A DNA stretch of 64,000 nucleotides from Bryum argenteum (lineage: Eukaryota > Streptophyta > Bryopsida > Bryales > Bryaceae). The translations under genes and the position numbers were made by a program. The stretch covers positions 18,597,001 through 18,661,000 of the forward strand of contig CM073321.1 of NCBI GenBank assembly GCA_037043015.1. The letters are read 5' to 3'. Of this stretch, positions 11,916 through 35,094 are shown one piece after another (position 1 is the first letter of the stretch; each line of letters begins with the position of its first letter). Under the pieces are notes generated by a model. That model had not been told where the DNA came from. It did not search any database and was given only the letters and a program-made list of their open reading frames with translations.

Positions 11916-11920
11916 GACCT

Positions 11921-13759: not shown

Positions 13760-13914
13760 ATAGATAAAAAAACCTCTCCACAGTCACCATCAGCAGGCCG
13801 AATAGCAAGAAAGTATCCTTCATAAACATCACGAGCTACACGAAAAGATGGTTGAGGACGATCTTGGATCTCTCCAACATATGCCTCATCCTCTCCAAAC
13901 TCCTCACGCAGTTC
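13760..13914 (-). pseudogene. DUF7869-type gene, internal exon
   Basis: It encodes 'GELREEFGEDEAYVGEIQ' followed by 'PSFRVARDVYEGYFLAIRPA', which in the family directly precedes the last exon at 12246-11921. The upstream side of this exon is cut at 13914/13915, where a gypsy LTR fragment begins. The core that should lie between this exon and the block at 14534-14590 is missing. Some hydrophobic and acidic residues remain well conserved, so the decay looks recent. The donor is 'GAG|GTTTTTTT'. Confidence 0.55.
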
Positions 13915-14531: not shown

Positions 14532-14533
14532 GG

Positions 14534-14590
14534 GAAGCGGTCTTCGCATGATCCATTTTGTCATGCATAATGGTCAAACACTCATTGTAA
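14534..14590 (-). pseudogene. DUF7869-type gene, truncated core exon
   Basis: This short coding block, 'LTIMHDKMDHAKTASP', is in my recollection a highly conserved motif just upstream of the RNase H-like core in this family. It begins after a plausible intron (15518-14591) and is cut at its 3' side by the LTR end at 14531. What should follow (the catalytic Asp/Glu region) is gone. Confidence 0.5.
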
Positions 14591-15518: not shown

Positions 15519-16722
15519 TTGCATAATATAACTCCCGATGAGCACGGGCTGCAGCCAAGTGTACCTCGAGCTTCTTTGCCCAAAGTAGCGCTTGTTGCGA
15601 CCCAGAAATAGAGCCACGACGGAGTGTGTGCAATTGATCACATTTGGAGCACCGCGCGAAGTTATCCCCGAGTTTCTTGGCATCAAATTCAGGAAAATGT
15701 AACTTCGGAATTCTACTTAGAGAAGATGGTGAGACCATCTTCAAACCGAAGCCTTCGTTTGCGGCGTTTATCTCCGGGATGGCACTCTTCCATTTCCATG
15801 TAGCGGAAAGAATCATGGATTCAACCTTCTCTCCAGATTTTAATGTCCTCGTTTGGTGCGGCATGTCATCCGCAGAGTTCTCCAGGATGCAACGCAGGGT
15901 TGCAGTTGCCTGCGACGTGTGCTTGAGCGGTTTAAGCAAAGACAAATTTCCATGGGGATGCGCCATGACGCCATCGGCCACGTACGTTTGAAACCAATGA
16001 AAGGTTGCCTCGGACACTCCAGCAATATGTCTCCATGCAGGCAAGCAAACATCGATTCCCTCAACCGTGACCACCTTCTTCCCGTCAGCATTTTGATGAA
16101 CTTGCCTGTGAATGTCAAACTTAATGTGAAACCTGAATTGGTAGGTCGTTCCACTATACATCGGCTCTCGGAAACATCGGATCTTGTCCCTTGGGAAGGG
16201 CTGAACGCAGTTCCTCGTGCAACATACTTTGCTTGAGACAGAATTGATAGATTCCTGATTTAGTAATCCTTTGGATTTGATGGATGTTTCAAGAGGCAGG
16301 TTCCTAGATGTATTGTTGTAACTTCGGCTACGCCATGACTGAGGTCTCGCAAGACGTGCAACACGAGAGTCATGATCGTGTCGTATCTCATGGTCTCTGA
16401 GACTAGCCCCATTATAGAAGACTTTATCGGACGGCCACGCCCTGATAGAATATCTCCACTCATCTGGCACCGCTGTAGCATCAAGGGTCTTCGAGATTTG
16501 AACTGCGACTCGGGAGTGCCCAAGTGGACCGTTACTTCCGAGAACGAGATTGTAACTGATGCTGTGACATAGGCCCTCCGCTACAAGGCGACCCTCGTCA
16601 CCGTAAAGGGTAACAAACTTTGTAGCCCAAAGACGCCGAGAAATACCTTCACACATTGGAACGTTTTCTGGCACCTCGGGTTGCTCGACAACCTCCTCAT
16701 CAAAGGAGAAATCACCAAGCAT
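15519..16722 (-). pseudogene. DUF7869-type transposase-like gene, N-terminal exon
   Basis: This uninterrupted reading frame of about 400 residues starts with an ATG at 16722. Residues 25-100 ('KFVTLYGDEGRLVAEG...SHSRVAV') resemble the DUF8039-like module found in En/Spm-associated plant proteins, recalled from memory. The second half includes 'CTRNCVQPFPRDKIRCFREP', 'VTVEGIDVCLPAWRHIAGVS', a tract rich in small residues, and a Cys pair 'CSKCDQL' that could bind metal. It ends at 'HRELYYANR' at a donor near 15518. The protein should continue in the exons at 14590, 13914 and 12246, but its core is deleted. Upstream, at 16800-17814, lies an array of twelve 23-bp dyads, and an acceptor-like 'AATTTGCAG' at about 16752 suggests that the array lies in a 5' intron. 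The gene is non-functional as it stands, though this exon is well preserved. Confidence 0.6.
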
Positions 16723-16801
16723 TTGAACATCTTAAGCAGCCATGGTAGAGTCTGCAAATTCATCACAAACGCAACGTGAGGAACACAAGAATATGTGGCG
16801 G

Positions 16802-17814
16802 TTCAACTTGACTCGAGTTGAATACAATAATGACAAAAATCGAATAGAATTATTTACACGTAGAGAAGATGTTGGAATAAATTTTCTGTCAGCTAATATG
16901 TCCATGAATTCAACTCTAGTAGAGTTGAATGCCCACATATAATTAATGCGAATCAACATCACGGAAGAGTATATTTATAACTATATGCTAATTCGGATTT
17001 AACTCGACTCGAGTTAAATATTAATGGGGAGGTCACGGTATCACGTGCCTTTGCCGGAGAATTGAACTGACAATTTCGACACGACTCTAGTAAAACATCG
17101 GAATGCATAAAGATAATATACATCCACGAAAAAACAAGAGAACATTGGGTGATGACTAAATCAACTCGACTCGAGTTGAATGTCAAGTCCCACGACTATA
17201 GCATTTCAGATTCCAGGAGTTATATTGATACATATAGATTACATCACATAATATGTGGAAATTCACATTTAACTCGATTCGAGTTAAATATTGTTTGGCT
17301 GATATAATGCCTGGAAGGCTGCCGGATATCAACACCGGGATTCAACTCGACTCGAGTTGAATATCCTCACCATAAAGGGAACACTCCCTTATGACATTGG
17401 GTGATAACTAATTCAACTCGACTCGAGTTGAATTTCAAGACCCATGACTATAGCATTTAGGATTTCTTGAGATTTATTGATACATATGGATTATATCACA
17501 TAATATATTGAAATTCACATTTAACTCGAATCGAGTTAAATACAATTTGGCTGATGTAATGTCAGGAACGCTGCCGGATATCCACACCGGGATTCAAATC
17601 GACTCGAGTTGAATATCCGCACGATAAAGGGAACATCCCCTTATGACATTGGATGATTTCCAATTAAACTCGATTCGAGTTGAATATCACCACCTATTAC
17701 TATAACATCCTAATTATGAAATCATGACTCATTTATAATTTAACTCGACTCGAGTTGAAATTGAACAGACATACATACTATGGCAATATAAATTCAACTC
17801 GACTCGAGTTGAAT
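16802..17814. repeat. Array of twelve 23-bp dyad elements (family A)
   Basis: Twelve copies of a dyad with 11-base arms (ATTCAACTCGA, central base, TCGAGTTGAAT) start at about 16802, 16908, 16997, 17159, 17267, 17340, 17411, 17519, 17592, 17663, 17738 and 17792. Several variants change both arms together: 16908 has CTCTA/TAGAG, while 16997, 17267 and 17519 have TTTAA/TTAAA. The central base is C, T, A or G. They lie upstream of, or in a 5' intron of, the minus-strand transposase-like gene. Confidence 0.95.
17142..17645. repeat. 252-bp tandem duplication carrying three dyads per unit
   Basis: Two consecutive units with period 252 share 'ATTGGGTGAT', 'GATACATATGGATTATATCA'-like and 'CACCGGGATTCAA' landmarks. 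Each carries dyads at the same offsets (17159/17411, 17267/17519, 17340/17592). A partial third unit starts at about 17646. Confidence 0.85.
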
Positions 17815-18815
17815 TTTTTTAGTATGGACCATTGTGCTTAACACATTCACCCTGAAATAACGGCGGAATGCACGGAACTCATAACCAGCTAAAACTCAAT
17901 AGTATACAGTAACTGTTGAAACACTGAGGAATTCCGAAACACGCTCACCTGCGAGTTGCAGATTTCAAGATGAATAGTAGGGCTCGCAACTGAAAAAACC
18001 ACGCACAAGAATTAGTAGCTAATACAGAAGTCAAACAATACATGACTAGCAACTGTGATAACTTAAAACACAATCAAAGTATAAGAGCATGGGCCTCTTC
18101 TACAATACTGAAACCTCTAAATCAGAAACTACATTAAGCGCAGTCAGCATCAACTCACATACAATCTAAACACACACGCAACCTTGAAGACGTACAGCGG
18201 AACGAAATCAAACTAAGCGCACCTTGAAAACACGGACGAGAGTGAGAGAAAATGAAAGGAAACATGAGAGACTGAGTTAGCACCCCAACCCGACCTTAAC
18301 GGCTGAATCGCGAGAGTATCCTCAACGCTCAATATCGTGCAAAAAGCCGACACTTTTTGTCGCAACCTGCATTTTTTCTTGATTGCGCTTCTAAATAAGG
18401 TTCTACTTTTTAATTCTGAATTTTGAAAATATTCGGCGGCAAAGATGTTTCGGCGGGAAACTGATTTTGGAGGGAAACCCATTCGTAAATATGGATTTTT
18501 TATTTTTTACAAACAAATGTGTCTTCATGTTTTCTCCATAAAATTAAACATTGAATACATATCTGTGAGCTAAGGATAAAAAATAAAAATTCGTACTCAT
18601 ATATTTATTGAATAAAATATAATAATTACAAAATTAGAGTAACTAGAGCAATTGAGAACATTCCATTGACAATACTTTACTTAGTAACGCAGAATCAATG
18701 AAATCAAATATATGGTACATTACTAATAAAAAATACCATAAAAAACATAGAATACTAACATAGAATAAAAACAATACAAATAAATGGGCATATGAATACA
18801 TATAAATATACATCA
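17815..18815. other. Upstream flank of the dyad array, AT-rich
   Basis: No coding sequence is recognised. The part around 18200-18300 is less AT-rich and could include the transcription start of the minus-strand gene. I see no clear TATA box. Confidence 0.35.
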
Positions 18816-18819
18816 ATAT

Positions 18820-19544
18820 ATATATAATATGTTAAATACATAATATTTTAATTCATTTATATACGAGTACAAATGTATATGAATAGATAAATAAGAACGT
18901 ATTATACATAAATATGGGTATAGATGTTAAATACATAATATTTCAACTCAATTATAATTGATTATAAGATAAATTTGACTATGTATTGAGAATTTATTGT
19001 GCTATCTTAGAATAGAACAAGGAAAGCGCAATTATATGACCATACAAGTTAAAATATGTATATATAGATATATACCCAAGTACAAATGAATACTAACATA
19101 GATAAATAAGTACGTATATATACATAGATACGAGTATAGATGTTAAATACATAATATTTCAAGATCAATGATAATTGATTATAAGATATATTGAACTACG
19201 TATTGGGCAATTATTGTACTATCTAAATATAGAACACGGAAAGCACAATTATATGACCATACGAGTTCAAATATGTCCGTATGTGAATAAATAAATAAAT
19301 ATATAATATAAGTATATATAGATATATACACGAGTACGAATGTATATGAATAGATAAATAAGTACGTATATATATAGATACGGGTATAGATGTTAAATAT
19401 ATAATATATAAACTCAGTCAGCTGATAGGTTATAAGATAAAGTTGACTATGTATTGAGCCTTTACTGTGCTATTTTAAAATAGAACAAGGAAAGGTCAAT
19501 TATATGACCATACAAATTAAAATATGTATATATAGATATATACC
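18820..19544. repeat. AT-rich satellite, left part
   Basis: Tandem units of roughly 210-250 bp are marked by 'GATGTTAAATACATAATATT' (about 18922, 19138, 19389) followed by 'TATTGAG...TTATTGT' and 'GATATATAC' blocks. The array is interrupted at 19544 by the hAT-like insertion and resumes at 23406. Confidence 0.85.
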
Positions 19545-20335
19545 TGGGGCGGGGCCAAGGCGGAGGAGGGAGGGCAAGGCGGGGGGTCGGGGGCTAGGGC
19601 GGGGTGGGGGGCTAGGGCGGGGGCGAGGAGGGGGGTGGGGGTGGCTAGGGCAAGAGCGGGCGGGCCGGGCATGGCGAGATGGGAGGCGGCGGAGGCGGGG
19701 GGGGGTAGGGGCGGAGGCGGGGAGAGCCAAGCGGGCGGGGAAGGCCATGGCAAGGGCGGGGGAGGCCAAGGCGGGGGCGGGGGGGCCAGGGCGTAGGTGG
19801 GTGGCGGGCGAGGGCGTGGGTGGGTGGTGGGCCAGGGTGTGGGCGAGGGGGGCAGGGGGGGCCAGGGCGTGGGCGGGTGGCGGACCAGGGTGTGGGCAGG
19901 GGGGGGCCAAGGCTTGGGTGGGGGGAGAGGGGGAGAATCGCTCTCTACATACCACAAAAAAAAAATTTAAAAATTAAAACAAAAACTAAAAAATAAATAA
20001 AATAAATGAAGAACGCCGCTCCCTCCCTTACCCCCCCCCCTATCCCTTAATCCCTCTCCTAAGCCCACTACCCCGCCCCTACCCCCTCCACTCCGGCCCC
20101 TAACCTCCCCCTCCCCTCCCCTGCTCCTAAAAAAAACTTAAAAAACTTTTTTGAAAAAATTTTAAAGAAAAAATTTAAAAATTTAAAAAAATTAAAAAAA
20201 AATTAAAAAAAATTAAAAATATATACCAACCCCCCCCCCTTATCCCCCTACCCCCTCTACCCCCTCTAACCCCCCTTAACCTCCCCCCTACCACCTCTAA
20301 CCTGCCCCTAACCCCCCCCCTACCCCCTCTATCGA
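19545..20335. repeat. G-rich then C-rich minisatellite, copy 1 left
   Basis: GGGGCGGGGC-like runs on the plus strand (19545-19940) switch to CCCCCTA-like runs (20020-20330) across an A/T-rich stretch. Long open frames here encode only Gly/Arg or Pro/Ala repeats and are not genes. Confidence 0.9.
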
Positions 20336-20338
20336 AGC

Positions 20339-20563
20339 ATTGATTTTCTGATGGAACAACATAGTCCCCAAATCGGACGCATGCTTCGAGCCATGCATCA
20401 ATCGCAATTCCTGAGGGATATTCTTGAAGAAGACGGGCCTACGAGGAGGACTCGATCAGTTGTTCGTAGACTTCGATTGGGCGGGGGTGAAGATTTGCCG
20501 GAGGGTACGAATGATGCCGAGGCCGGCACAAGCGGTACAGCGATGGATGAGAACTACTTGTAG
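20339..20563 (+). pseudogene. C-terminal fragment of the RING/coiled-coil TE gene
   Basis: The last 70 or so residues ('MEQHSPQIGRMLRAMHQSQF', 'RDILEEDGP', 'GGGEDLPEGTNDAEAG') are nearly identical to the end of the minus-strand gene at 45646-46254, including the stop region and about 80 bp of 3' flank. Only this tail survives, fused to the C-rich array. It shows that copy 1 derives from the same element as 38.96-51.12 kb. Confidence 0.9.
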
Positions 20564-20829
20564 ATTTTCGTAGTTGTGTTGCAACCAAGATATACTTCTC
20601 TTTTTCTATATCGTTAAACACTACTGAAATACATATGCTTTTCTTTTGCAAACTTGTTAGCACACTTTATGCATGTGTTTATAATCATATTATCATGGTG
20701 TCATTGTATGGTTAGCTTGATAAATAGTTAAGTGTGAGAAAAAATTATTTTAAATCTTGTAACAACTAAAAAATATCTTATGAACATGATAGGACAATAA
20801 AAAAATAAACATACCGGTAGCGGATGTCA
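20564..20829 (+). other. 3' flank of the RING-gene tail
   Basis: This is the reverse complement of about 45360-45640 in the larger element (shared 'CATACCGGTAGCGGATGTCA' at its right end). Noncoding. Confidence 0.7.
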
Positions 20830-21840
20830 ATCCAGAGTGAGGGGGGAGAGAGGGGAAGTGATGGGGTGAGAGGGAGGTGAGGATGAGGGGGGGGTGAGGA
20901 TGAGGGGGCGGGTGAGGGGGGAGTATAAGAAAAGAAAGGGAGGAGTGGAGAGAGAATGTGAGGGAAGAGGAGAGAAGGGGAGGAAGTGGAGTGGAATGAT
21001 GGTCAATCCGATCATTGGAAATCCAAACATTACCCCACTATATCCGGAATACTCCAAATCCCGGCTTTAATGAGGAAATGTTTGGATTTGCTTATCCCAT
21101 TAATGATGCTTGTTTGCAAAACATAAGATTGATGAGAGTGATGACAAAAACCTTTGCAAAAAATTTCAAAAAACTACGTGGGGTGGGTGAGATGGGGATG
21201 GGTGGGGTACGGGGAGGAGGGGCGGGTAACATGGGGGGTAGGGCGGGTACCGGGGAAGGTAGGGGCGGGTGCACCGGGGGTAGGGCGGGTGCCGTGGGGT
21301 AGAGCAAAGGAGGTAAGGTGGAGTGAGGGAAGTAAGTGTGAGGGGGTGAGGGGGGTAAGGATGAGAGTGGGGTGAGGGGGGGGGTGAGGGTGAGAGAGGA
21401 GGGTGAGGGTGAGAGGAGGGTGAGGGTGAGAGGAGGGTGTGAGGGTGAGAGGAGGGGTGGGGGGGGTAGGGGCGGGTGCCGATGGGGGTAGGGCGGGTAC
21501 CGATGGGGGTAGGGCGGGTACCGGGGGGTAGGGCGGGTACCGATGGGGGTAGGGCGGGTACCGGGGGGTAGGGCGGATAACGGGGGGGTAGGGCGGATAC
21601 CGGGACGGTAGGGTGGGTACCGGGGAGGTAGGGTGGAGGATGTAAGGTGGAGTGAGAAGAGTGAGGGTGAGGGGGCTAAGGGGGGTGAGGATGAGGGTGG
21701 GGTGAGGGGGTGGGGTGAGGGGGTGGAGTGAGGGTGAGGGTGGGGGGGTGAGGATGAGGAGGCGGGTGAGGGGGGAGGAGAAGAAAAGAAAGGGAGGAGT
21801 GGGGAGAGAAGGGGAGAGAAGAGGAGAGAAGGAGAGGAAG
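20830..21840. repeat. G-rich minisatellite, copy 1 centre
   Basis: Repeats such as 'GGGGGTAGGGCGGGTACCG' (period about 20) and GTGAGGGTGAGA-type units, all purine-rich on the plus strand, match the C-rich block at 44710-45345 in reverse. They include a short unique spacer at 21000-21170 that is duplicated, imperfectly, at 21850-21950 ('GGAAATCCAAACATT', 'CTCCAAATCCCGGCTTTAAT'). Runs of four or more G tracts could form quadruplexes. The long proline-rich minus-strand frame is not a gene. Confidence 0.9.
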
Positions 21841-22162
21841 TGGAAGAGGAGTGGAATGATGGTCAATCCAATCATTGGAAATCCAAACATTCCCCGACTA
21901 TATTCGGGATACTCCAAATCCCGGCTTTAATGAGGGAATTTTTGGACTTCATTACATTAAAAATACTCGGTATAAGGAAGAAGGAGCCAAGGGGGGATCC
22001 AAGAAAAGAGAGAATTGAAGTTTCTATACTTCCCCCTCTTATTCAAATTTGCCCCACTATAAACCAATTCTCCCTTCTATATCAAAGTCTAGCTACGACA
22101 TCCCCAAAAAAATGATCTTCTTAAAATGTGTGCTATTTCTCTCCAATCCCACCTTCTATTAA

Positions 22163-22560
22163 GTTTATTTCATTTTTCTTCCCAATACTATATTACAAAT
22201 AAATTTATCATCCTAATTGTTTAACCATATATTTGATTTTACGCTTACTATTTATATTAAGACTAAAGAATATAGTGGTGGGTAGTATTATGTTTATTTC
22301 ATTCTTCTTCCCAATACTATATTACAAATAAATTTATCATCCTCATTGTTTAACCATATATTTGATTTTACGCTTACTATTTATATTAAGACTAAAGAAT
22401 ATAGTGGTGGGTAGTATTATGTTTATTTCATTCTTCTTCCCAATACTATATAGTACAAAAAAAAAATTATCATTCTAATGCTTTAACCATATATTTGATT
22501 TTAGGATCAGAATTTATAGTGAGACTAGAGAATATACTCGTGGTTAGTGTTATGTTTATT
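22163..22560. repeat. Tandem repeat of about 130 bp, three units
   Basis: Units start at about 22163, 22293 and 22422, marked by 'TTTATTTCATTCTTCTTCCC' and 'CCATATATTTGATTTTA'. A fourth start at 22555 breaks off. The larger element has two such units at 44160-44415 in reverse orientation. Confidence 0.9.
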
Positions 22561-22629
22561 TCATTCTTCTTCAAATAACATTTTATTTAAAAAAATTCTT
22601 AAAATTTAAATAAAATTTAAAAAACGCAG

Positions 22630-23200
22630 CAACCCTCCTTACTCCCTCTCCCCTCTCTCCTATCCCACCTCCCTCACCCTTATCCCTCCTCCTACCTCCC
22701 CCTTATCCCTCCTTCTCCCTCCTACTCCCCCCTTATCCCTCTCTCTACCCCCCCCCTTCCCCCCCCCTACCCCCTCCCCTGCACCCCCTAATCCACCTTA
22801 TCCCCTCCCCCCGCCCTACCCCCCCTCCCCCGTCCTACCCCCCCCTCCCCCGTCCTACCCCCCCTCCCCCGTCCTACCCCCCCTCCCCTGCCCAACCCCC
22901 CCTCTCCCGCCTCCCTACCCCCTCTCCCGCCCTACTCCCCCCCCGCCCTAACCCCCCCTCCCTCGCCCTAACCCCCCCCCCGCCCCTAACCCCCCCCCCG
23001 CCTCCTTCCCCTCACCCGCCCCGCCACCACAAGCCACCCGCCTCTTGCCCACTCTCACCCGCCCCGCCACCAAAGTTCACCCGCCTCAAAAGTTCACCCG
23101 CCCCCTCTCAAGTTCACCCGTCCCCTAAAAAGTTCACCCGTCCCCTAAAAAGTTCACCCGTCCCCTAAAAAGTTCACCCGCCCTAACAAAAGTTTACCCG
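22630..23200. repeat. C-rich minisatellite, copy 1 right
   Basis: Pyrimidine-rich units (CCCCTACCCC, CCGTCCTACCCC) pass into spaced 'AGTTCACCCGCC' repeats near 23080-23220. It corresponds to the G-rich block at 43470-44085 in reverse. Confidence 0.9.
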
Positions 23201-23405
23201 CCATGGCACAATTTCACCCGCCCCGACGTCACGATGGACTTACACGTCACATCCTACGTGGCTTTTTACAGAAAATTTTCTTACCCATGAAAAAATTACA
23301 CGCCTCCTACTATCAAGTTGGGCGGGCACGCCCGTCCGTCCGGGACAACTCGTACGTCCGTTTTGTTGGCCCGATTGCCTCAACACGCCCAATATGACAA
23401 CCTTG

Positions 23406-24115
23406 ACCCAAGTACAAATGAATACTAACATAGATAAATAAGTATATATACATAGATACGAGTATAAATGTTAAATACATAATATTTCAACTCAATGATA
23501 ATTGATTATAAGATAAATTTGACTACGTATTGAGCATTTATTGTACTATCTTAATATAGTACAAGGAAAGCGCAATTATATGACCATAGGAGTTCAAATA
23601 TGTATATATAGATATATACCCGAGTACAAACATAGATAAGTAAGTACGTATATATACATAGATACGAGTATAGATGTTAAATACATAATATTTCAACTCA
23701 GTCAGCTAATATGTTATAAGATAAATTTGACTACGTATTGAGCATTTATTGTGCCATCTTAATATAGAATAAGGAAAGCGCAAATATATGCGCATACAAG
23801 TGCAATATATGTATATACTTGAATATATGAATAAATAAACATACGTATATAGAGATATATATACAAGTAAAATTGTATATGAATACCTAAATAAGTACGT
23901 ATGTATATGCATAGATACTGGTACAGAAGTTAACTTTATAGAATCTTAATTCAATTATATTCGATATTAACATAAATTTGAATATATGTTGAGCATTTAT
24001 TGTGCTATCTTAATTTAGAACAACGAAGGCGCAACTATATGCGCATACAAGTTCAAATATGTATATACATGAATATATAAATAAATAAATATACGTATAT
24101 AAAGATATATATACG
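23406..24115. repeat. AT-rich satellite, right part
   Basis: This continues the satellite interrupted at 19544, with units at about 23466, 23672 and a more diverged one at about 23930. It starts with the target-site half 'ACCCAAGTACAAATGAATAC'. Confidence 0.85.
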
Positions 24116-24895
24116 GTTTGTAGTCAGTAATCTACTTCTAAAACATAATACTGTTGGACGATCTTTTGGTATGAATGATGTATGGCTATGGTATGAATGA
24201 TGCACGCCGATGATATGTGTGATGTATGGCCATGATATGTGTGATGCATGTCTATAGTATACATGATGTTTCTGAAAGATATCTTCTATCTATATACTCT
24301 CACTATCTTATTTATATTGTCCAATTCGTTCTCTCAAACCTTCCTACCTGATTATATATCTATCCAATAATATTTTTCATATGTAGCTATTTATATTATT
24401 AATAAAAGCTTATGTTGTAATAATATTAAAAAAAAAAACCAACAACAAAATAAGATGGTCACGAATAAAAATAATGAGCATGACAACATCTTAGAAATCG
24501 GTAGAGAGGGGATAATTTTTTTAGCTTCCTTTTCGAGTGAATGATGACCTTATTGGATTGGAGAACGTTAACTAATGGGAAGTTGGATATGAGCATAATC
24601 AAAGTTGAATTAGTGCTTGGGTATTGCCAATTAAATAACGTTTTTTTTTTTTTTGAGTTTGTATCTTATTTCAATATAAAACTACACACAACCTTTTAGT
24701 AATTAAAACATGGTATTTTTGCTGACACGTTTTATCTAATACTACACATATTATTGTAAAGTGTTGTGGAGTCTAAAATTTTACGATACAATACATATAA
24801 TGTTAGAATAGGCATTTATTGAACTTATCTTTTTTTCAAAAAAATTAACTAGAAAAATTAGTTAGAAATAATTGAAAAATATAATGGAATTTAGT
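24116..24895. other. AT-rich noncoding stretch with a degenerate 26-bp repeat
   Basis: At 24165-24270 a degenerate repeat of about 25 bp ('GATGTATGGCTATGGTATGA'-like) occurs about four times. Otherwise there are only A/T runs and no gene. Confidence 0.5.
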
Positions 24896-25079
24896 GCAGT
24901 GTAGAGACGGGCAAACATGAAAAGGGCAAGAAATTGCTGCCCGAAGCAATATACGGCGGGGGCAGCGTGTAAGGCGGCCCGGGTAGGCAAGGGCAGTCCA
25001 AAAGGCGGCCCGGGCAAGATTACGGGCAGCCCGCTCGAATTATGGTCGGGAACGGAGAGCGGGGGGGGGGGGGCTAGGG

Positions 25080-26148
25080 TTTGGCCCCCATTGTATTCCT
25101 CTTCTTCCTTGCTCCTGCGCTGCGCTTGCTGAATTTGGCTGTCAGCGTTCTTGCATTCTTGCGTTAGTTGGTGTTTTCTTGCATTCTCGCTCGTGTAGTT
25201 CTCGCCTCGACAGTCGCTAGCTCGTGGCCTCGAAATCAGCTATCTCCTGGCCTCGAAGGTCGTGTTCGTTCATGTTTATAGAGTCTCTTTTGTATGTAAT
25301 CACTCTTTTTCCTCTGCTTCTTGCTTCTTGGTCTGCTCCCCGACGCTTTTTGCTTCTCTTAGCTCTGCGCCTCGACCTTGTTAGCTTAGACTCTGCTTTT
25401 CGAGATAATCGCGGCATCAAGTGGGTGGCTGGTTTGACGGCGCTTTTGCAGCTTTCGCAGCGATCATCGAAGTTCCAGGACTTCACAACCTTCACTGTAA
25501 GTTAATCGATATTGTTTGTTACTGGTTTGCAATTTCATTTTGTGGTGGTGCAAGTTTAGGTCATTTCTGTTAGTTTTCCAAACTTTGGGAGTTGAATTTT
25601 ACTAGCTTTTAGGAGCCTTCAAAATTCGAGTGATTACATTGGAAAAGATGAGGAGGAAGTTTGAGTGTAGATGTCTGATTTAGGAAAGGAGAGGAAACTG
25701 GCCTACTGCAGCTGGTTCATAAAATTTCTGAACCCTAATTTTTAAGAGCAGATCTGGAATTTGAATGTTGAAACAGAAGAGGTGGCTATGTTTGAAGTGT
25801 TTAGGGTTGATTCGGGGAAGTTAATAAACTTGTTGAATTGCGAATTGGTGAGAGTTGTCAATGAGGTTTTTCCTAGTGATTTTAGATAATTAGAATGCTT
25901 ATGTTCACTTCCAGAGCATCGGTTTGTGAATCAATTGCAATTGAATTGATCTACTATGTGATTCTTGCATACTTGAATCTGCGTTAGTGTTGAGAATTTT
26001 ACTCTGAATCAGTCATTGTAATTTTTTTTGTTCTAATCATTCATTGTTTACAATCATTTATTGTTTGCTTCAGGAGTAGGACAAAGCCGAGGCTTGTCCA
26101 ATCAATTTCTGTATCCACAGTCTAGCAGGGAAGCACACAACAGAATGG
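25080..26148 (+). other. 5' exons and first intron of the dyad-intron gene
   Basis: A probable untranslated 5' exon, pyrimidine- and GC-richer than its surroundings, ends at 25496 at a donor 'ACT|GTAAGTTAAT'. An intron runs to 'TTTGCTTCAG' at 26073, followed by a short exon 26074-26148 that ends ATGG|GTGAGTATT. The ATG at 26145-26147 is a good start because joining ATGG to the acceptor at 27483 opens the long frame downstream. The small open frame at 25224-25505 has no protein-like features. The transcription start is not visible. Confidence 0.5.
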
Positions 26149-26338
26149 GTGAGTATTCAATACTTAACTCTTGCTCAATGTGACTAAGTTTCCGCTGAAT
26201 AGTTTGGCATTGGATATCTGTGCTCCCATGTTCTTCAAAATACTAGTTTTGCACATACTTAGCGTAGAGAACAGTTCAGATCGATTGAACTGTAGCCGAG
26301 TTGTGTTGATGTTCTAAAGATTCAATAAAGATAAGCAG

Positions 26339-27424
26339 TTCAACTCGATCGGAGTTGAATTGGATACACATTTTTTTACCTTTGCATGCCACCGACATTA
26401 TAGACTACAGTCAGATTCAACCCCGGCGGAGTTGAATTCTCCATCCATTCATTTTTGCCGAGTTGAACTGTCCATCCAATTCGTTTCTTAGAGTTAAAAC
26501 GCGAGTTCACAGACAAGGGGGAATTCAACTCGACCCGGGTTGAATCTCTGTCCTAGAATCCCTTTAACAGTGAATGATAGATTAGGCTTGAACAATTCAA
26601 CTCAATTCGAGTTGAATCCAGACAACACGAGATATAAGGGTACTGATATTCTTCCCCTATGCTACTTACTCGCCGCAGCCCGAACAATTTAACTCGACTC
26701 GAGTTAAATCGATGAATTACCACTATAGTGTCAGTAAACATATTCAACTCGATACGAGTTGAATCACTGATGCGCATGTGCTAAACAAGACAATCATTCA
26801 ACTCGACTCGAGTTGAATCGATAAAATACGATAAGTGTTATCAGTGTACATTTTCAACTCGACTTGAGTTGAATAACTGTAGTGCATAATAAAGCAGAAA
26901 CATAATCCAACTCAAATCGAGTTGAAATAGGAAGGATTTTTTCATAATTTCATGCAGTTGCAAGAGAACCATAATATTCAACTCGAGTCGAGTTGAATTA
27001 TTCGATGATAGAAATTACTAAAAACAGACAGAGTATCCATAGGGCTGAAAACCGACATGTCAAATTCAACGAGAGTAATGCACAATCCTCTGACTAAATT
27101 TGACAAAATACATGGGTCGATACGATCACCTTGATTAGAGTTGAAATGAAGAACATTTAGTCTCACGATTAATTCAACTCGAGTCGAGTTGAAAGTATCT
27201 AAGCTCTGTATTTAGAAACCACAAAACGTCATGAAGGATACATTTAACTCGAATCGAGTTGAATCCCACTTCCTTGCTAAAGATAATCGTAGACTAACAG
27301 AGAGAGATAGAATGCTATTTCAACTCGACTCGAGTTGAATAAAACTTACTTGGATAGTTGCTAACGATAATCGTAGACTAACAGAGACAATTAGATAGCT
27401 ATTTCAACTCAACTCGAGTTGAAT
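26339..27424. repeat. Array of fourteen 23-bp dyads (family A) in intron 2
   Basis: Copies start at about 26339, 26415, 26523, 26595, 26687, 26742, 26796, 26852, 26904, 26976, 27172, 27242, 27318 and 27402. The spacing is mostly 50-110 bp, with unrelated spacers. The whole array lies between donor 26149 and acceptor 27483. The consensus matches the array at 16.8-17.8 kb. Confidence 0.95.
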
Positions 27425-27483
27425 ACTAATCCTTGCAATACATACGGATAAATACTCATTTGTCTCCTCTGTCTCATCAAGAG

Positions 27484-28913
27484 AAACCAATCCGAAGGAG
27501 AGGCTCTCAACATTCTTCAATCAATATGTTCTCGAAGGGGACAACGAAGTCGCAGATCCCGAAATATTTGGCGACATGTGGGTCCACACAGAGCCTAACG
27601 ATGTCGAATGGTGGAGTATGCTCTTTACACCGTACACGGACAAGCTGGCTGTCGTCACCAAGTACAGGGGAGCAGACTGCAACCTTCTTGTCAATTTGGA
27701 GGAGAACATCATCAATGTCGTCGTCCACAACACGCACTAGATTCGCGTGACGTGCATCGTGGACGACCCCAATGAGGACACGGCTGTGGACCAAGACTAC
27801 AGGTTCACTTACATGATCGACACAACAAAGATTGATTCGGCATTTGGGCTCATGTCGAGAGTATAAGAAATACTCCTTACAAACCCTTGGCGAAGAATGT
27901 CGAGCAACACATTCGCGAGTTTTGATTCACAACGGAACTCGGTAACCAGCAGCCCCCAAGTATTCTCGCCCCTCGTCTCCGATCACTCGTCACTGCCATG
28001 GTGAACTTCAAGGCGAAGCTGCAACGCAAGAAGATCCAAATGACGCCCCTTCGTCTGACGCAGGAAGTAAGCATGCACAGCAGCAGCCACGAGTCCATCC
28101 TATATCAGACTCCTGAGGCGACGGGATCAAAGAGGCGCAAGGCAAATCCGTCCACAACTCAGCGGGGGCCGACACAAAAGAAACTCAAATCAGTCACGAC
28201 GAAGAAGTCCACCCTGGCCGATCCCACTGAGATTGAACAGACAAGCTTAGTGTCGGCCTTGACGGAAGTACCCATCGACAATGTAGACAAAGTTGTCGAT
28301 TACAAGGAGTCCATGAATGCGTTCAAGAACTACTGGGCACTTTGCCAAGACTCATACATCTTCGGCTCAGATGTCACTTACGAGATTCCAATCAAGCGTC
28401 TCTTTATCCCCCCCCCCCCCGCGGACCTGAACATCTGAAACCTCGAGCAGGAGAAAGTCAAGCACACGATGCATTTCCTGATTGAGATGTGCGATAAGGA
28501 GAAGAAGAACACCCTCTGCATCTTCCCAAAGAATACGCTTGTAAAACCCCAATCTTGGGAGGAGATAAAAGACGGGGAGTTCTATATGGTGAATGGACAA
28601 CACTGCATGGAGGCCTCCAAGCAGTTGCAAAACATGCTCGATGTAGACGCTAGCATCAGGGACGCTTTCAAGACTTGGGACTGCTTCGTAGTATGGAACG
28701 AAGATAAGTCCATCATTCGGAGAATCTCCGCGTTCTACAACAGGGTCAACCACTTCATGAATACAAATCCAACGTGGGCGACAAACATCATTGGGGCGCG
28801 GGAGCTGTGGGAAGCCTCGGTAGACCGGAGAATCCAAAAGAGGCTACTGAGGTTGGCAGGACCGTCACACAGAGGGCCTACAAGGGCAAGAAACCTGCAA
28901 AGGACAATTTCAA
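27484..28913 (+). pseudogene. Dyad-intron gene, exon 3 (unknown N-terminal region)
   Basis: After the acceptor 'CATCAAGAG' the frame reads 'ETNPKERLSTFFNQYVLEGD' and 'DMWVHTEPNDVEWWSM', then meets TAG (27738), with more in-frame protein after it ('RVTCIVDDPNEDTAVD'). Further stops lie at about 27867 and 27924. From 27998 a basic, Ser/Thr-rich stretch follows, then 'YKESMNAFKNYWALCQDSY'. A run of 13 C's at 28408-28420 sits next to a stop. The frame 28469-28840 ('FPKNTLVKPQSWEEIKDGEF', 'YMVNGQHCMEASKQLQNML') is clean and then shifts frame near 28840, before the donor 'AATTTCAAC|GTATGTG'. 'NGQH...AS' hints at a ParB/DGQHR-like fold, but I cannot assign it. Several lesions make this a pseudogene. 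Confidence 0.5.
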
Positions 28914-29059
28914 CGTATGTGTACATCCATTCAACTCGATTCGAGTTGAATATCGTCCTACACTACTAACGATAATAATTCGATTTTATTCCTGCTGTAA
29001 CCTATTTCAACTCGACTTGAGTTAAATATCTAACTCAATATCGTACTTAGTTGATACAG
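28914..29059 (+). other. Intron with two family A dyads
   Basis: GT at 28914 ('GTATGTGTAC') and AG at 29058 ('TTGATACAG') enclose two dyads (28929 and 29004). At about 146 bp this is the clearest case of dyads inside a small intron. Confidence 0.65.
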
Positions 29060-30423
29060 GAGTTCATGGAAGCTGTCAAGATTAGATTTGCTCTCATCGT
29101 CGTCAAGAACGCCCAGAAAGTAGTGACAACTAGTAAGGCCGCCAGAGAGAAGCTCAACATCCAAAATGAGCTTAAAATCATCTGTGCTCCAAATGATGTC
29201 TACAACGTCTGGCTAGAGCTTATCTCATCCGCATCCCAAGGGGAGCTCATCGACCCCGACACAGGAAGGAAGATGAAGGAGTTGGGGAAGTGGAAGCCTG
29301 AGTATGGACACCTCACTAGGGAGTTCTTCAAATGGATCGGCAACACAAGCTACGCCCAGATCAAGCGATTGGCCGAGCATATGCTAAACAGACCGAACCC
29401 AAAACGGCGACACTCATACCCCAAAGTCACATTGAAGCAGATGAAGGGTGTGTTTGTAGATTGCTACAGCTCTTACGACTGGCTGGAGCGCTGCAAGAGG
29501 AAGACCATTGTGAAGCGCGTGATTCACAGCATGCGCCCTGACTTAATGTTGTTCAACACGAGTGGGGACTTCAGGAAGGAGAGCTGGAAGAAATTCAAGA
29601 CCGATTTCAAGATCATGCCACTACATCAAACGTCCCGATCACGAATCCCGGGAGTCCTTCTTCACGCTGGCAAAATTCTCCAAAGAACAAGAAGAAGTCC
29701 GTTGAGCAACTCTCGCCGTATGCAGCAGAGTTCTTCAGATGCTTCCTCGCCAACAAGGGGAAGTTCCAGGTTCCAAGGGGTGAAACAAACTTCTGGGCCT
29801 ACAGCCTGCAGGACGATGTTCTAGGGGAATGGCACGATGACTCTTGGAACAAATTGTCATCTAAGAGAATCAAGGTCGGAATAATGGACTTCCGTAATCT
29901 CCCCGGAGCACAGGAGGTATCAGCTTCATCGAGCTCGTCATCAGGCTCGTACTTCTACAACGTCCTCCAAGTCCTAAAGTCTATCACGGACCCGGTGGTA
30001 ACTGAAATCCCCGCTCGGGTTTCCTTCTGCGAAAGTAAGGATGCTGAGGCGAAGATCAAGAATCACCTCGATAGTTGCGAGTTTGGAACCAACTACAAGA
30101 TAGAGTATGCGGAATATGTTCCGGCTCCTTACGAGCGACTCGAGGATCAAACCTCGTCGACCAAGAAGGCCAAGGATCATGTCCAGATCCTGTTCTTGTT
30201 TCGAAAATCTCAGAAGTTGAGGATTTCGAATCTCCCAAAGTTCTTACAGGCCCCCGACACTCCACAGTTCAAGATCTGCGGGAGATACAACGAACTCGAG
30301 TACCGTATTTAGAATACGGAATTGAGGATGGAGTTCTACCTGAAGCTGCTTCATCTCTTCTGCAAGGAAGGGGATGCGATCCTCAGTGTTTTTGGAGGCG
30401 GGAAGCTCTACTGTGCGGCCTGG
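29060..30423 (+). pseudogene. Dyad-intron gene, exon 4 (possible methyltransferase-like end)
   Basis: The frame opens with 'EFMEAVKIRFALIVVKNAQK' and runs about 190 residues, including 'PNDVYNVWLELISSASQGEL' and 'YGHLTREFFKWIGNTSYAQI'. A one-base frame change near 29620 moves it to 'KKSVEQLSPYAAEFFRCFLA' and 'WAYSLQDDVLGEWHDDSW'. That frame continues to a TAG at 30310-30312, after which 'MEFYLKLLHLFCKEGDAILS' followed by 'VFGGGKLYCAAW' leads to the donor 'GG|GTAAGGAC' at 30423. The last motif resembles the glycine-rich loop after 'D-P-F' in N4/N6 DNA methyltransferases ('vLDpFaGsGt..AA'), but the Asp/Pro are not conserved, so the assignment is tentative. Overall the protein is unknown. Confidence 0.45.
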
Positions 30424-30833
30424 GTAAGGACATCCCATGTATTTCAACTCGATTCGAGTTGAATAGTTCGTCATGACTCTGTTGCTTTCTAAGCTCGTTG
30501 TATTTAAGTCGAGTTGAGTTCAGTGCGCACCTTAGTGTCCAGGGATCACTTTTCACAAACTTGGATTCAATTCAACTCGACTCAAGTTGAATGGATTACT
30601 AAGTAGGCTACGAAGTCTTGTTCTTACATGCGTTCTTGTATTTAACTTGAGTCGAGTTGAATTTGTTGTTTGAAGGCGCTTAGAGTTCATATTTGGTATT
30701 CAACTCGACTCGAGTTGAATGCACACAGCAGATTAGTCTTGTAGTGCTTTCACACGCCAACTCCATTTCAACTTGATTCGAGCTAAAATTTCAAATGATT
30801 GACGTTGTCATCTCTTGATGTGTCTACACGCAG
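30424..30833 (+). other. Intron with five family A dyads
   Basis: The donor is 'GTAAGGACATC' and the acceptor 'CTACACGCAG' (ending at 30833). Dyads begin at 30442, 30570, 30640, 30698 and 30766, with a decayed one near 30507. A CTTGTAGTG at about 30738 resembles a CACTA end but stands alone. Confidence 0.65.
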
Positions 30834-31788
30834 ATGTGTTCGCTGATCAATTACACGATCAGCTTCAGCAACGAGCACGACGAAGTTGTTTGACTTTCCA
30901 TGGATGTCTTCAACTTGGATTGTCGAGATTTCGAAGGTGGGTACCCGATTGATGAGGCTTCTGGATCCAGGGAGAGACTGGAAGCACCACCACCTCCCAC
31001 GAAGACGGAGAAGGGAAGGGGAAGAAGAAGGTCAGGGGAGTAGAGTTACCACTTGACTTGAATGACCCAAAACCGATAGTAATCGGGTCAAGTGACGACG
31101 ATGACGATCCTAACCAGGATGTTGAGGCTTACGGTTCCCAAATCCCCACAACGCCCCAAACTGGACGAGGCTCATCTTCTCATCTTCCTCATCTCCAGGA
31201 ACAAGGCTATTTTGATAGCTCTCTTCCGGCTTCCACGCCATCGCCTCAGAAGAAGAAAAGGGAGTCACTATCCGTTGACGCTCTAATGGAGAAGCTCGTC
31301 AGAATGCAGGAGGAAGCGAGGCGCGACAAAGGGCGGAAGTTGAAGCAATGCTTGCTCGAGAGCGCGAGGAACGAAGAGCCCAGAGAGATGGGGATGAGCA
31401 ACGATGGAAGTTTATGATGACTGAGGCCTTCGCGAGAATACCTAGGGTAGTAGTCCAAGCAATTACGAACCTGAATGCAAAGCCGCTCCTCTCCCTTGAT
31501 TCAAGTCATAGTGAACCTCTGCTCCTGACTCACGGGCCTCACTGAGTCTTCCGACAGCGGTGCAGCTTGACATGCATCTCCTCGACGTTCCCTCCAAGGC
31601 ACGCCTTCTTAGTCGACTGCAGCTCCCTCACCTGCGGGCAACATCGCTCAAGTTGTTTCTAGAGATCAAGGCCCATCAAGTCGCTCCATACCATCGGACC
31701 CAGTCAATTCGGAAAGGAAGACCGTCGATGAGGAAGAGGAGATAGGGACACAAGATGAGACTCTGGATCGGAACGTTACCGAATCAGG
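30834..31788 (+). pseudogene. Dyad-intron gene, exon 5 (acidic, SIM-like, coiled coil)
   Basis: The region encodes a disordered linker. 'PPPPTKTEKGRGRRR' is a basic NLS-like stretch, then in the next frame 'DLNDPKPIVIGSSDDDDDPN' is a textbook SUMO-interaction-like pattern (hydrophobic IVI followed by Ser-Asp acidic residues). A low-complexity part and a charged helix ('MLAREREERRAQRDGDEQRW', 'KFMMTEAFARIPRVVVQAI') follow. At least two frame changes (near 31020 and 31320) and a stop at 31545 break it. It ends near 31788 at a donor-like AG|GTTGAAC. The intron that follows (to 32042) contains a dyad at 31813. Confidence 0.45.
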
Positions 31789-32042
31789 TTGAACCCCACG
31801 ATCTAGTCTTTCATTTAACTTGACTCGAGTTGAATTTCTCCTTCGATTAAAGGAAGTTCGCCTGTAGAAGCCTTCGACAGTTGTTGATAGCCTAGTATAT
31901 ATATTCCCCTAGGACAGTTTTGTTAGATTGGACTTGGTGTTCATCGTGTAAATACTTTTTGTAATTGACGCTCATTTTTGAACGCAAAGTTTGAAATACA
32001 ATCATATTTTCTTACACATTTTCTCCCTCTTATTTCTACGCA

Positions 32043-32272
32043 GGCTCTACTGATTTGCGAAGTGTTCCGAATGTTTGTATGTCTCATGACGTCCCCCCTA
32101 TGGAAGACACTAGTCCTATGAGTCCGTTTCATGGTGAGCCAAGTAACACGGCGCAAGATGATCACAATGAAGGTCACATTCCGGATTCAATCTTGCTCAA
32201 GGTTCACATTCCTCTTCCATCCTCGACCGCTATACAAGATTCACAAACAGCTGAAACTCAATTAGAGACGCC
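32043..32272 (+). CDS. Dyad-intron gene, exon 6 (linker)
   Basis: This short clean frame ('MEDTSPMSPFHGEPSNTAQD', 'PDSILLKVHIPLPSS') lies between the acceptor 'TTTCTACGCAG' (32042) and the donor 'GACGCCG|GTAAGCTG' (32273). It is rich in Ser/Thr/Pro and probably unstructured, linking the SIM-like region to the FCP1 domain. It has no known domain. Confidence 0.5.
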
Positions 32273-32467
32273 GGTAAGCTGCTCCTATTCCAAAATCTCA
32301 TTTTCATTCAATCCTTTCTTTATTAGTTTGGTGTGATCACATTGTTTGGATTTGGGATTTCATAGTGTTATCAAAATGGTCAGTCTTGAAATGTGGCAGT
32401 GCAGTACTTAACTGTTTACACATTTGTCTGCCCCCCTTCTGAACAACGGATGAGTCATTCGCAGAGT

Positions 32468-33241
32468 CCGGTAGTTGCAGTCGAGGAGGATATTCCTCGT
32501 TCTATTCCTTCAAGGGTGCCATGCAAGTGGCTCAATGTCATCCTGGACTTGAACGGTATCCTTTGTGTCTGCAAGGAGAAGAGATTTATGCCAAAGGACC
32601 AAGTTTACAACATGGTCGCAAGTGCACATTCCTCTATCCTACCCGCTCCGATTGGTCCCAAGGCTGTTTTCGTTCAGCCCTTCTGCCTTGATTTTCTTCG
32701 TGAGTTGACTAAAGTTGCATACATCTCCGTATGGAGTTTGATGGTTCATGCGACCACGAAGTCCATATGTGACTACTTGTTTCGGGGTGTGCCATCCCCG
32801 TGCCTTGTTTGGGGGCAGAACTCATGTGAGGTTGTCAAGGTTCGTGGACCACGGAATAAGCTGTCCAACTTCAAGTTGAAGGGGACTAATAAGGATCTCT
32901 TCCTTAAACCACTCGATATGCTTTTCAATGGTCTAAACTCAAAGTTTAATAAGCATGACACGACCATCATTGACGATAGCCGTGAAAAGCACGTTGTGAA
33001 TGAACCAGAGAATGACGTACTGCTAGGCTCGTGGTCAGAGCATGATGTATACGACAGATTCTTGGTGGACGAGCTCCTCCCTTGGATTCAACGTCTACAT
33101 CAAAGCCGCGGTGAGTGCTTGTTGTCTTTCCGTAGGGAAGACAACATTGGGCGTAGAATGCTCTCTGAAGAGCTCGATACTTCAGAATACAATGAGCTTA
33201 TTAATGCCGTAGAGGCTTCTAGGAAGCTAGTGCTTGATTAG
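32468..33241 (+). CDS. FCP1/NIF-like HAD phosphatase domain exon
   Basis: The exon starts after 'CATTCGCAG' and encodes a complete FCP1 homology domain. Motif I is 'WLNVILDLNGILCVC'. Strand 2 gives 'YISVWSLMVHATTK', matching the family's V-V-x-[WY]-[TS]-[AS] position. A lysine lies in 'NKDLFLKPLDMLF', and motif III is 'TTIIDDSREKHVVNEPEN' with the expected DDS. The domain dephosphorylates Ser/Thr in proteins such as the RNA polymerase II C-terminal tail. The second Asp of the canonical DxDx(T/V) is Asn here (DLN), so catalysis may be weak or lost. The frame is free of stops, ends with TAG at 33239-33241, and has AATAAA at 33308. It is the best preserved exon of this gene. Whether it is a host gene fragment captured by an element or part of a TE gene is not settled. 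Confidence 0.75.
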   Translation, partial: PVVAVEEDIPRSIPSRVPCKWLNVILDLNGILCVCKEKRFMPKDQVYNMVASAHSSILPAPIGPKAVFVQPFCLDFLRELTKVAYISVWSLMVHATTKSICDYLFRGVPSPCLVWGQNSCEVVKVRGPRNKLSNFKLKGTNKDLFLKPLDMLFNGLNSKFNKHDTTIIDDSREKHVVNEPENDVLLGSWSEHDVYDRFLVDELLPWIQRLHQSRGECLLSFRREDNIGRRMLSEELDTSEYNELINAVEASRKLVLD

Positions 33242-33307
33242 GCTAGTTAACCAAGATTGGTCTCACCAGACAAGATTCAAATTTGCCATGTACATTGTGT
33301 AGATTAT

Positions 33308-33313
33308 AATAAA
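33308..33313 (+). terminator. Polyadenylation signal AATAAA
   Basis: It lies 67 bp after the FCP1 stop codon, a sensible place for 3' end formation of that transcript. Confidence 0.5.
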
Positions 33314-33422
33314 TGATTTCAATATTAATGTCTTCTCTCGGACTGATTTCATTTCAGAGCGGGCTTGTGTCAGGCCCTTTATTTTATCGTAGTATTTGAT
33401 GGTGCTAGTTCCCTCAGCATTG

Positions 33423-33445
33423 GTTTAACTCGAGTCGAGTTGATT
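33423..33445. repeat. Single family A dyad downstream of FCP1
   Basis: A copy with TTTAACTCGA / TCGAGTTGA arms precedes an acceptor-like 'TTCGTATCCAG' (33507). It therefore probably sits in an intron before the next coding block. Confidence 0.8.
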
Positions 33446-33507
33446 TGGCTATATCATATTGCATATCATCCTTGTTGATGATTCCTCTAAAATGAATTCG
33501 TATCCAG

Positions 33508-34421
33508 GTGTCCAATTCCGTCTCGGTTTTGGACAATGATTTTGATTTCCGTTGCGCTGCTTCTGCTGATTCGATTTTGGACTACGGACAATACTCAATT
33601 TCGCAGAGTGGAATGGGCGATATGATGTACTCAGCAGCTACCGCACAATCAACTATGAACTACTCGACAATGGCAATTGATGATGGTGGTGTGGATAGTC
33701 CTCCTTTTGGCGGTAAGCGACCACACTCTGCATGTTCTCCTTCCTTGCTGAAGAACCGTACCATAATAGACGAATCAAGTCAAGGTGGTGTTCCGCAAAG
33801 AAAGCTTTACGATGATTCTGAGTTAGTTGAGGATGCACTTCCGGTACAGGTATGACATACTTGAAGCAGTTCATTTATGAGTTTTTTTTAGTTTTTAACT
33901 TCAATCGTAGTTTGATTTACTTACATTTCTCTATGTCTTTTCATGCACTTAGGCGACAAGTGCAGCAGTCGTGCCCATACCGGTCATTCTTGAGTCTCGG
34001 CTCTTCGTGTATCACCTCATAAGGCATCGTCGCTAAAAATATCTCGTGGTGCGTCGACACATTCTCTCTCTACGTCTTGTCCATTGAAGTCTTTGGAGCC
34101 GGCAGCAGAACTTGGAGACTGTATGACTGAACTAATGGGGCCACCTAATCCGTCTGTTGCCCACGCTGTTGATACCTCGCGTTTGCGCTTCCGGACTATG
34201 CGCCTGCTATTACACAAGGGTCACCGCCAGACTCAATCACACGATGGATTTCAGCCCAGAGTTAGTTGTCCTCCAGTTCGCGATGCATTGGAGCAACGGA
34301 TTTTGAAGCTTCAAAGACGTGAAAATTCAAGTTCGCGTTCGTCACCATACACAGGCTACAGTCGTGGACCAGAAGTGTGGAAGGTACTAGCTGAAATTCG
34401 AAGCCGTTCGCACATGTGATA
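33508..34421 (+). pseudogene. Ser-rich unknown coding block, two exons
   Basis: I do not recognise the protein. Exon one (33508-33848) encodes a Ser/Gln/Met-rich stretch ('SADSILDYGQYSISQSGMGD', 'SPPFGGKRPHSACSPSLLKN') up to the donor 'CAG|GTATGACA'. After the acceptor 'TGCACTTAG' (33952), exon two in a shifted frame encodes 'HAVDTSRLRFRTMRLLLHKG' and ends 'VWKVLAEIRSRSHM' with TGA at 34419-34421. It looks disordered and basic. It may be the 3' continuation of the FCP1 gene or a separate gene of the same element. There is a stop near the start of exon two. Confidence 0.4.
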
Positions 34422-35094
34422 CGGCAACAGTCTTGATTTGATTTAGAGGACATTGAATAATATGGTTCTCCATGGATAGCCCACATTCAACACGATACTG
34501 TATTGTTCTATTGGTATATAGAAATATCGTAATTACCATCGTACATTCAGATCATTCATATGTAACTAGAGCTCACATATATATCTGGATGAGCATATAT
34601 TTCCTTTGACGTAATCAATTGGTGTATACATTGTCTATAAATAAACATACATTCATGCATATTCTATTCTGGGATACAATTATTCATCCATCTATATCTA
34701 CTTTATACCATTTTTAACAGACTATTAGTATTTTTATGATTACTTCAGGGACTCAACAATACTCTCATTATTGAGGGATACTCTCTAAATAATGAATATA
34801 GTGTTCAACCTATGGCCTGGCTCAAAGTGAACAAATTTTCATCAGATACTGGAAAGTGAAGTTCGTGCTCGTCTATGAAACTATCCTTCACCTGGATTGA
34901 GAATTCATCATCTTCTTATAGAACGTAGTGGTGTAAGTCTCCGGGCATTCCATGTAGCAATGCAGTTCCAACAACTTTGGTGGAGGCGTCGTCACGAGGT
35001 TTACTGAGCAATTGGACCTCCATTTCTTTTGCAAACTCACCTTGCAATACAAGAAACACATGATGCAAAATTGGCGCAAATCAATACATGACAG
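34422..35094. other. AT-rich noncoding stretch
   Basis: This is probably a boundary zone between the dyad-bearing gene and the next CACTA element. I looked for a CACTA terminus here and saw none. Confidence 0.4.

Follow-up and report, generated by a model that had tools for sequence, protein, structure and literature searches.

The 64,000-nucleotide stretch analysed here (contig CM073321.1, positions 18,597,001 to 18,661,000; hereafter the window, in whose coordinates positions are given) contains a copy of a DNA transposon with two divergent genes, one for a DUF7869 transposase (gene 1, minus strand) and one for a multi-domain protein (gene 2, plus strand), and with many copies of a 23-bp dyad-symmetric sequence, ATTCAACTCGA N TCGAGTTGAAT, whose central base is free; this is the form found in what we call family 1 (Table 1). 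A scan allowing up to three mismatches identified 33 dyads in the window and none in 100 sequences shuffled by dinucleotide, and relaxing the limit to five mismatches gave 36, in good agreement with the initial annotation, which had counted about 34. That annotation had divided them into clusters of 12 and about 22; the first is as described (16801-17814), and the second holds 21 (26338-33445), with 13 in intron 1 of gene 2, two in intron 2, four in intron 3, one in intron 4, and one past the exon encoding the NIF domain. As had also been proposed, no dyad falls in coding sequence (0/33, with 7,277 bases counted as coding); random placement over 17.7 kb of element would produce this with P ~3e-8, a value that treats the sites as independent, which the duplicated ones are not, and that leaves a further insertion of ~0.9 kb in. 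Predicted introns contain 32 of the 33, and the left-hand 12, previously read as 5' flank, lie not merely in the flank but inside a predicted intron in the 5' untranslated region (UTR) of gene 1. Spacers between dyads are mostly unrelated in sequence, as first reported, except where tandem duplications have carried dyads along (17142-17708, period 252; 26691-26926, period 109).

Six other copies of the transposon were picked by a gene-2 exon search and then aligned to the window copy, that on contig C2 in its central and right part only. Terminal inverted repeats (TIRs) and 4-bp target-site duplications (TSDs; CAAC, CCGC, ACAT, GTAG, CTGT, and AAAA) were read in all six copies for which both ends were available, namely the window copy and five others. 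Near-complete copies measure 17.2 kb (C1, at 38.16 Mb), 17.1 kb (C3), and 17.8 kb (C9), the copy on C10 measures 21.3 kb, and in each of these four one or both genes are interrupted by stops or frameshifts. The window copy is likewise broken, with unaligned inserts at 12244-13781, ~14586-15483, and 19543-23405 and with a frameshifted gene 2; at 13919-14527 a repeat stands in place of ~1.1 kb of gene 1. The stretches 19543-23405, 43529-45870, and 48226-48580 belong to another repeat, which is GC-rich and contains G-runs and tandem units of 129 bp; one of its copies is inserted in the dyad element.

Using Pfam, DUF7869 was identified above the cut-off (E = 9.5e-33), and as the only match, in gene 1 of the C1:38.16 Mb copy, while the window's own gene 1 pieces returned zero matches; this copy lacks most of the domain. 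Neither that gene nor the window pieces matched tnp2 (Transposase_21) in Pfam, and the literature searched yielded no paper mentioning DUF7869 and nothing about this element. The 5'-UTR intron of gene 1 keeps its donor GT in 6/6 of the other copies found and its acceptor AG in 5/5. Gene 2 appears to comprise about six coding exons, which we infer from splice sites; the donor of intron 1 was found in the window and copy B only, and its acceptor region in copies B, C1_38, C10, and C2, with a short BLAST query against the six other copies. The GT/AG borders read earlier for introns 2 to 4 are kept in most of the loci or copies compared (Table 1). Intron 2 begins at 28915, one base from the start first given.

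Table 1 Features of the dyad-bearing transposon copy in the window.
Feature	Position	Strand	Basis
Whole transposon copy, family 1	11069..34805		TIRs AACAC[CA]ATATTCATT; TSD CAAC at 11065-11068 and 34806-34809
Left TIR	11069..11094	+	End comparison
Gene 1, C-terminal part	11921..12243	-	Open frames, comparison with other copies
Gene 1, surviving internal piece	13782..13918	-	Alignment with other copies
Gene 1, N-terminal part of DUF7869 transposase	15517..16751	-	No Pfam match itself; 109 genome matches
Gene 1, predicted 5'-UTR intron, 12 dyads	16752..17948	-	GT-AG conserved
Dyad array A, 12 sites	16801..17814		Mismatch scan
Foreign repeat inserted in dyad element	19543..23405		Unaligned in other copies; similar to 43529-45870
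Gene 2, proposed coding start (ATGG) before intron 1	26145..26148	+	Inferred from sequence
Gene 2, predicted intron 1, 13 dyads	26149..27483	+	GT-AG
Gene 2, exon 2, predicted ParB-like domain at its end (YMVNGQHC motif)	27484..28914	+	Open frame, predicted structure
Gene 2, predicted intron 2, dyads at 28929, 29005	28915..29059	+	Donor GT 18/20 loci, acceptor AG 18/20
Gene 2, exon 3, predicted helical middle and beta-class methyltransferase fold (frameshifted in window copy)	29060..30423	+	Predicted structure
Gene 2, predicted intron 3, dyads at 30442, 30570, 30640, 30698	30424..30833	+	Donor GT 19/20 loci, acceptor AG 15/20
Gene 2, exon 4, acidic, coiled-coil-like linker	30834..31788	+	Open frames
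Gene 2, predicted intron 4, dyad at 31813	31789..32042	+	Donor GT and acceptor AG in 6/6 other copies
Gene 2, exon 5	32043..32275	+	Open frames
Gene 2, exon 6, NIF/FCP1-like phosphatase domain, DLNG at motif I	32464..33241	+	Pfam NIF 7.9e-10
Lone dyad between NIF exon and following open frames	33423..33445		Mismatch scan
Two open frames (33511-33849, 33958-34419), last exons or third gene	33511..34419	+	Open frames
Right TIR	34780..34805	-	End comparison

Structure prediction for gene 2 yielded a ParB-like domain and a beta-class DNA-methyltransferase fold, with a phage ParB/Sulfiredoxin protein as the best match among predicted viral structures (E = 2.4e-5). Two-domain ParB/Noc chains align over gene 2 residues 235-564 with a root mean square deviation of 8.9-14.5. 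Pfam scans, which included no direct comparison with the Arabidopsis protein VANC discussed below, recognized only the NIF domain above the cut-off (E = 1.2e-14 in the family-2 protein), weak matches in single members (CTD11 0.001, Tugs 0.0034, others) being taken as noise. Profile searches against solved structures detected neither ParB nor methyltransferase, and neither PHROGs (lowest E = 0.028, for P0014 residues 257-358) nor NCBIfam (E = 0.017) produced a convincing match. Motif I of HAD/NIF phosphatases is usually D-x-D; here it reads DLNG in both families 1 and 2, from which the domain is possibly an altered or inactive phosphatase. Inspection of the element's open frames by eye revealed no ParA, and a literature search joining ParB with Physcomitrium returned nothing relevant.

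The initial annotation had confined the dyads to two genes; this holds inside the window, but a genome-wide scan found 2,022 family-1 sites (up to two mismatches) together with other variants belonging to sister families. In the family-2 copy L044, whose gene 2 has 45% identity to exon 3 of the window gene, the introns of gene 2 carry CAGTTTAGCTCGA N TCGAGCTAAACTG, and a third element adjoining copy B, with DUF7869-like and NIF-like open frames assigned by eye, carries ATTTAGCTCGA N TCGAGCTAAAT. The family-2 dyad has 7,962 genome matches (up to two mismatches), a count that includes exact third-family sites because the two variants differ at two bases; the third-family dyad has 3,950 (up to one mismatch). 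The core CTCGANTCGAG occurs 9,262 times in the genome, against 100 for the control, and 7,790 of these occurrences (84%; control, 0) fit TTNANCTCGANTCGAGNTNAA, so that most genomic occurrences of this 11-mer belong to the site family. Gene 2 open frames, and with them a second element protein, are present in the copies read and in the sampled family-2 and family-3 elements.

On contig C1, 70 of 87 family-1 sites had a gene 2 of family 1 no more than 12 kb away and none lay near family 2, and 41 of 100 family-2 sites lay within 12 kb of a family-2 gene 2 and none near family 1, among the matches and genes listed, both of which are partial, so that these fractions are not rates; the share of the C1 part within 12 kb of gene 2 is 3.0% for family 1 and 2.5% for family 2. 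Again among the matches listed, 7/10 family-2 genes and 5/21 family-1 genes had no dyad of their own within 12 kb; inspection of the introns of two of those seven family-2 genes (L045 and L046) revealed exact family-2 dyads outside the matches listed, and the site listing is therefore partial. Introns of two family-1-type genes, L047 (C2) and L048 (C3), contained family-1 dyads, so the expected own-family dyad was present in 4/4 introns fetched. The number of dyads in intron 2 varies within family 2, from ~7 intact or degenerate dyads spaced 33-35 bp apart in L045 through four in L044 to two in L046, a change in copy number. At C1:511444-511676, the spacing of family-2 dyads is mostly 35 bp and the nearest listed gene 2 is more than 12 kb away; these are perhaps non-autonomous arrays. 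Contig C1 (44.1 Mb, 17% of the genome) holds ~78 of the 94 family-1-type gene-2 matches among those listed, the 16 others being counted by hand and some copies matching twice; it is repeat-rich and, at a guess, possibly a sex chromosome. Binding of the dyads by a host transcription factor, as intronic enhancers, would suit their position in introns close to the 5' ends of both genes, but such a factor would not be expected to need a distinct symmetric site for each sister family in one genome, and we regard this explanation as quite unlikely.

Among 20 aligned copies, identity averaged 97.3% in dyads, 87.3% in spacers, 94.9% in exon 3, 93.0% in exon 2, and 86.4% at the dyad centre, and CpGs were kept at 91.1% in dyads, 71.3% in spacers, and 85.9% in exon 3 (columns with at least 12/20 copies, in a region covering six of the window's 33 dyads; misalignment of spacers could lower their identity). 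A simple tandem satellite was rejected, the dyads being better conserved than their spacers. Protein searches identified 92 gene-2 relatives, most from metagenome contigs and including Physcomitrium patens and Ceratodon purpureus; in 29 of them the frame includes, usually close to one of its ends, a peptide that a dyad core would encode, as in a frame running on into an intron, whereas 200 shuffles gave 5.4 such proteins on average and never more than 11. By pattern, the same peptides were observed 10, 11, and 11 times where 4.2, 0.7, and 0.11 were expected, the first pattern alone not being significant (shuffle maximum, 10). Could the dyads be functionless passengers, spread by tandem duplication and gene conversion? 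The local duplications that carry dyads and the differing numbers in intron 2 of family-2 copies would fit, whereas conservation of the six dyads above both spacers and exon 3, recurrence of dyad-like run-on frames in relatives, and the absence of dyads from coding sequence do not; we consider this reading very unlikely.

Base frequencies and pairing were analyzed in 302 of 320 family-1 sites (up to five mismatches); the 18 left out, which carry G6 or C18, comprise 12 from the third-family element adjoining copy B and six inside family-1 elements. T3, A5, and T8 and their mirrors A16, T19, and A21 are fixed at 98-100%, positions 4 and 20 at only 76% and 70%, and A11 and T13, which flank the free base 12, at 95% and 89% (similar in all 320). 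One-sided transitions that keep a G.U pair numbered 66 against 85 that break the pair in gene 2, and 20 against 27 in gene 1; a constraint on pairing predicts an excess of the former, and RNA pairing is therefore not favoured. Positions 4 and 20 were jointly changed in 43/302 sites against 22.5 expected, in 24/115 distinct sites against 14.9, in 57/320 against 29.7 in the fuller set with third-family sites, and in 4/33 in the window (Fisher P 0.013), related sites not being independent in any of these statistics. The initial annotation had offered RNA hairpins, affecting splicing or serving as a source of small RNA, as an alternative, and the location of almost all dyads in predicted introns and the symmetric change at positions 4 and 20 are on its side; that change, however, is equally expected from a symmetric dimer's DNA site or from templated repair, G.U-keeping transitions are not in excess, and bases 11 and 13, necessarily in the loop, are conserved while base 12 is free. 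Hairpins as the main function were accordingly rejected, and we consider action in RNA very unlikely.

CACTA elements (En/Spm) combine the protein TNPA with subterminal motif arrays and a 3-bp TSD. The parallel drawn with them at first extends to arrays of short motifs for an element protein, but it is weak: the dyads are internal and intronic, the TSD is 4 bp in 6/6 copies, the transposase belongs to another family, DUF7869, and the window's CACTA transposase lies elsewhere (57949-59121). Membership of CACTA was rejected on these grounds. The Sola superfamily, which has a 4-bp TSD, was considered as a candidate superfamily for the element. The CACTA-type fragment, a tnp2 transposase on the minus strand (Pfam Transposase_21, 7.6e-59), is separate from the dyad element; at 39672-43186 (minus strand), open frames resemble, by eye, a hAT transposase.

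The dyads might instead be internal sites of the DUF7869 transposase, serving transposition or a TNPA-like self-repression. Gene 1 splits into the same two families as gene 2, and 12 dyads lie in its own predicted 5' intron, both of which this explanation would accommodate. Transposases are expected to act at the ends, however, and no dyad occurs in the TIRs; in six copies (up to four mismatches) the dyads keep a distance of at least 3.4-3.7 kb from the left end, and from the right end they lie 2.9-3.0 kb away in the four near-complete copies and 1.4 kb away in the window copy and copy B. We therefore judge transposase sites unlikely.

The reading best supported is the one the initial annotation had put first, binding sites for a homodimeric element-encoded protein, because the sister families have their own symmetric variants, the dyads are conserved above their spacers, and a conserved core surrounds a free base. 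We propose that a sequence-specific, element-encoded dimer, most likely the gene 2 product, docks on the dyads in double-stranded DNA and controls expression or silencing (probability roughly 0.55). Of its parts, the action of the dyads as DNA for some element-encoded dimer is probable, the gene 2 product is somewhat favoured as the binder, and anti-silencing, rather than repression or other use, is a possible outcome that we hold at less than even odds. In such a mechanism, the gene 2 product would bind dyads as a dimer, accumulate over the introns of the element, and from that position either maintain the element in a transcribable state or regulate it, as VANC does on VANDAL.

VANDALs are Mutator-like transposons. 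In the available text on VANC and VANDAL elements of Arabidopsis (Hosaka et al. 2017, PMC5735166; PMC10398659), a plant DNA transposon similarly encodes a second protein besides its transposase, and short motifs (YAGTATTAY, AGTTGTCC) crowd non-coding parts, introns included, differ between sister families, and multiply through tandem repetition. In that same text the VANC motifs are short and the word palindrome is absent (PMC5735166, PMC10398659), unlike the 23-bp dyad with its constant core, and the present element has a 4-bp TSD and a DUF7869 rather than a Mutator-like transposase. The element is thus not a VANDAL but may work like one, and its failure of membership does not count against that. 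The layout resembles VANC/VANDAL in its family-specific, non-coding sites and second protein, and gene 2 is therefore proposed as the dyad reader, countering silencing or regulating.

ParB on parS, Noc, and KorB are bacterial CTPase clamps on palindromic sites. The predicted ParB-like domain of gene 2 and the palindromic sites in arrays are similar; the eukaryotic transposon, the odd-spaced dyad, and the apparent absence of the Box II arginine are not. In the excerpted literature, KorB silences genes at long range (PMC11790492), Sulfiredoxin is the commonest eukaryotic ParB-fold protein, and phage proteins fuse the ParB fold with an N6_N4 DNA methyltransferase (PMC12704722). Both of these folds are predicted in gene 2, a likeness by fold, but gene 2 differs from the fusions so described in its helical middle between the folds, the NIF domain after them, and the non-canonical motifs D-F-R-x-x-P-G and G-x-K. 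A bolder scenario, which we hold doubtful, is a eukaryotic ParB-parS-like system. A phage-type ParB-methyltransferase fusion would have been captured by a moss transposon and extended with an FCP1-like phosphatase domain, and palindromic loading sites would have multiplied into the thousands across the transposon's introns. Bound protein would load at these sites or spread from them along the transcribed element and protect it from silencing or act on passing polymerase, each family's protein and site changing together.

Several observations weigh against the gene 2 docking-site proposal. Co-occurrence cannot separate gene 2 from the transposase, which splits into the same two families; among the matches listed, 59/100 family-2 and 17/87 family-1 sites are near no listed gene 2, and in the six sites inside family-1 elements mentioned above, position 6 or 18 has the base of the second or third family. 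The ParB kinship of gene 2 comes from predicted structure only, profile searches of gene 2 finding no ParB (DUF6551, E = 0.06 in two members, is below the cut-off). The Box II arginine is needed for nucleotide binding in ParB-fold proteins; with the box placed by eye in alignments, it is apparently replaced, with S, C, N, or H coming directly after NGQH. No DNA-binding helix-turn-helix was identified in gene 2, whose helical middle was not modelled alone. The methyltransferase motifs are non-canonical, with near-invariant D-F-R(-x-x-P-G) and G-x-K columns, and DPPY and FxGxG were not found in that region when placed by eye against the standard motifs.

Judging by the ParB and methyltransferase folds predicted for it, the proposed reader may have come from a prokaryote or a phage. 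In the portions of the literature that our search returned, anti-silencing of plant transposons through family-specific motifs is described only for VANC. The three dyad families differ at known symmetric positions, which makes the reading of bases by protein directly testable. If the proposal is true, this element would represent a second, unrelated system, in another transposase class and probably in a moss, and sequence-specific self-protection of transposons would evolve repeatedly.

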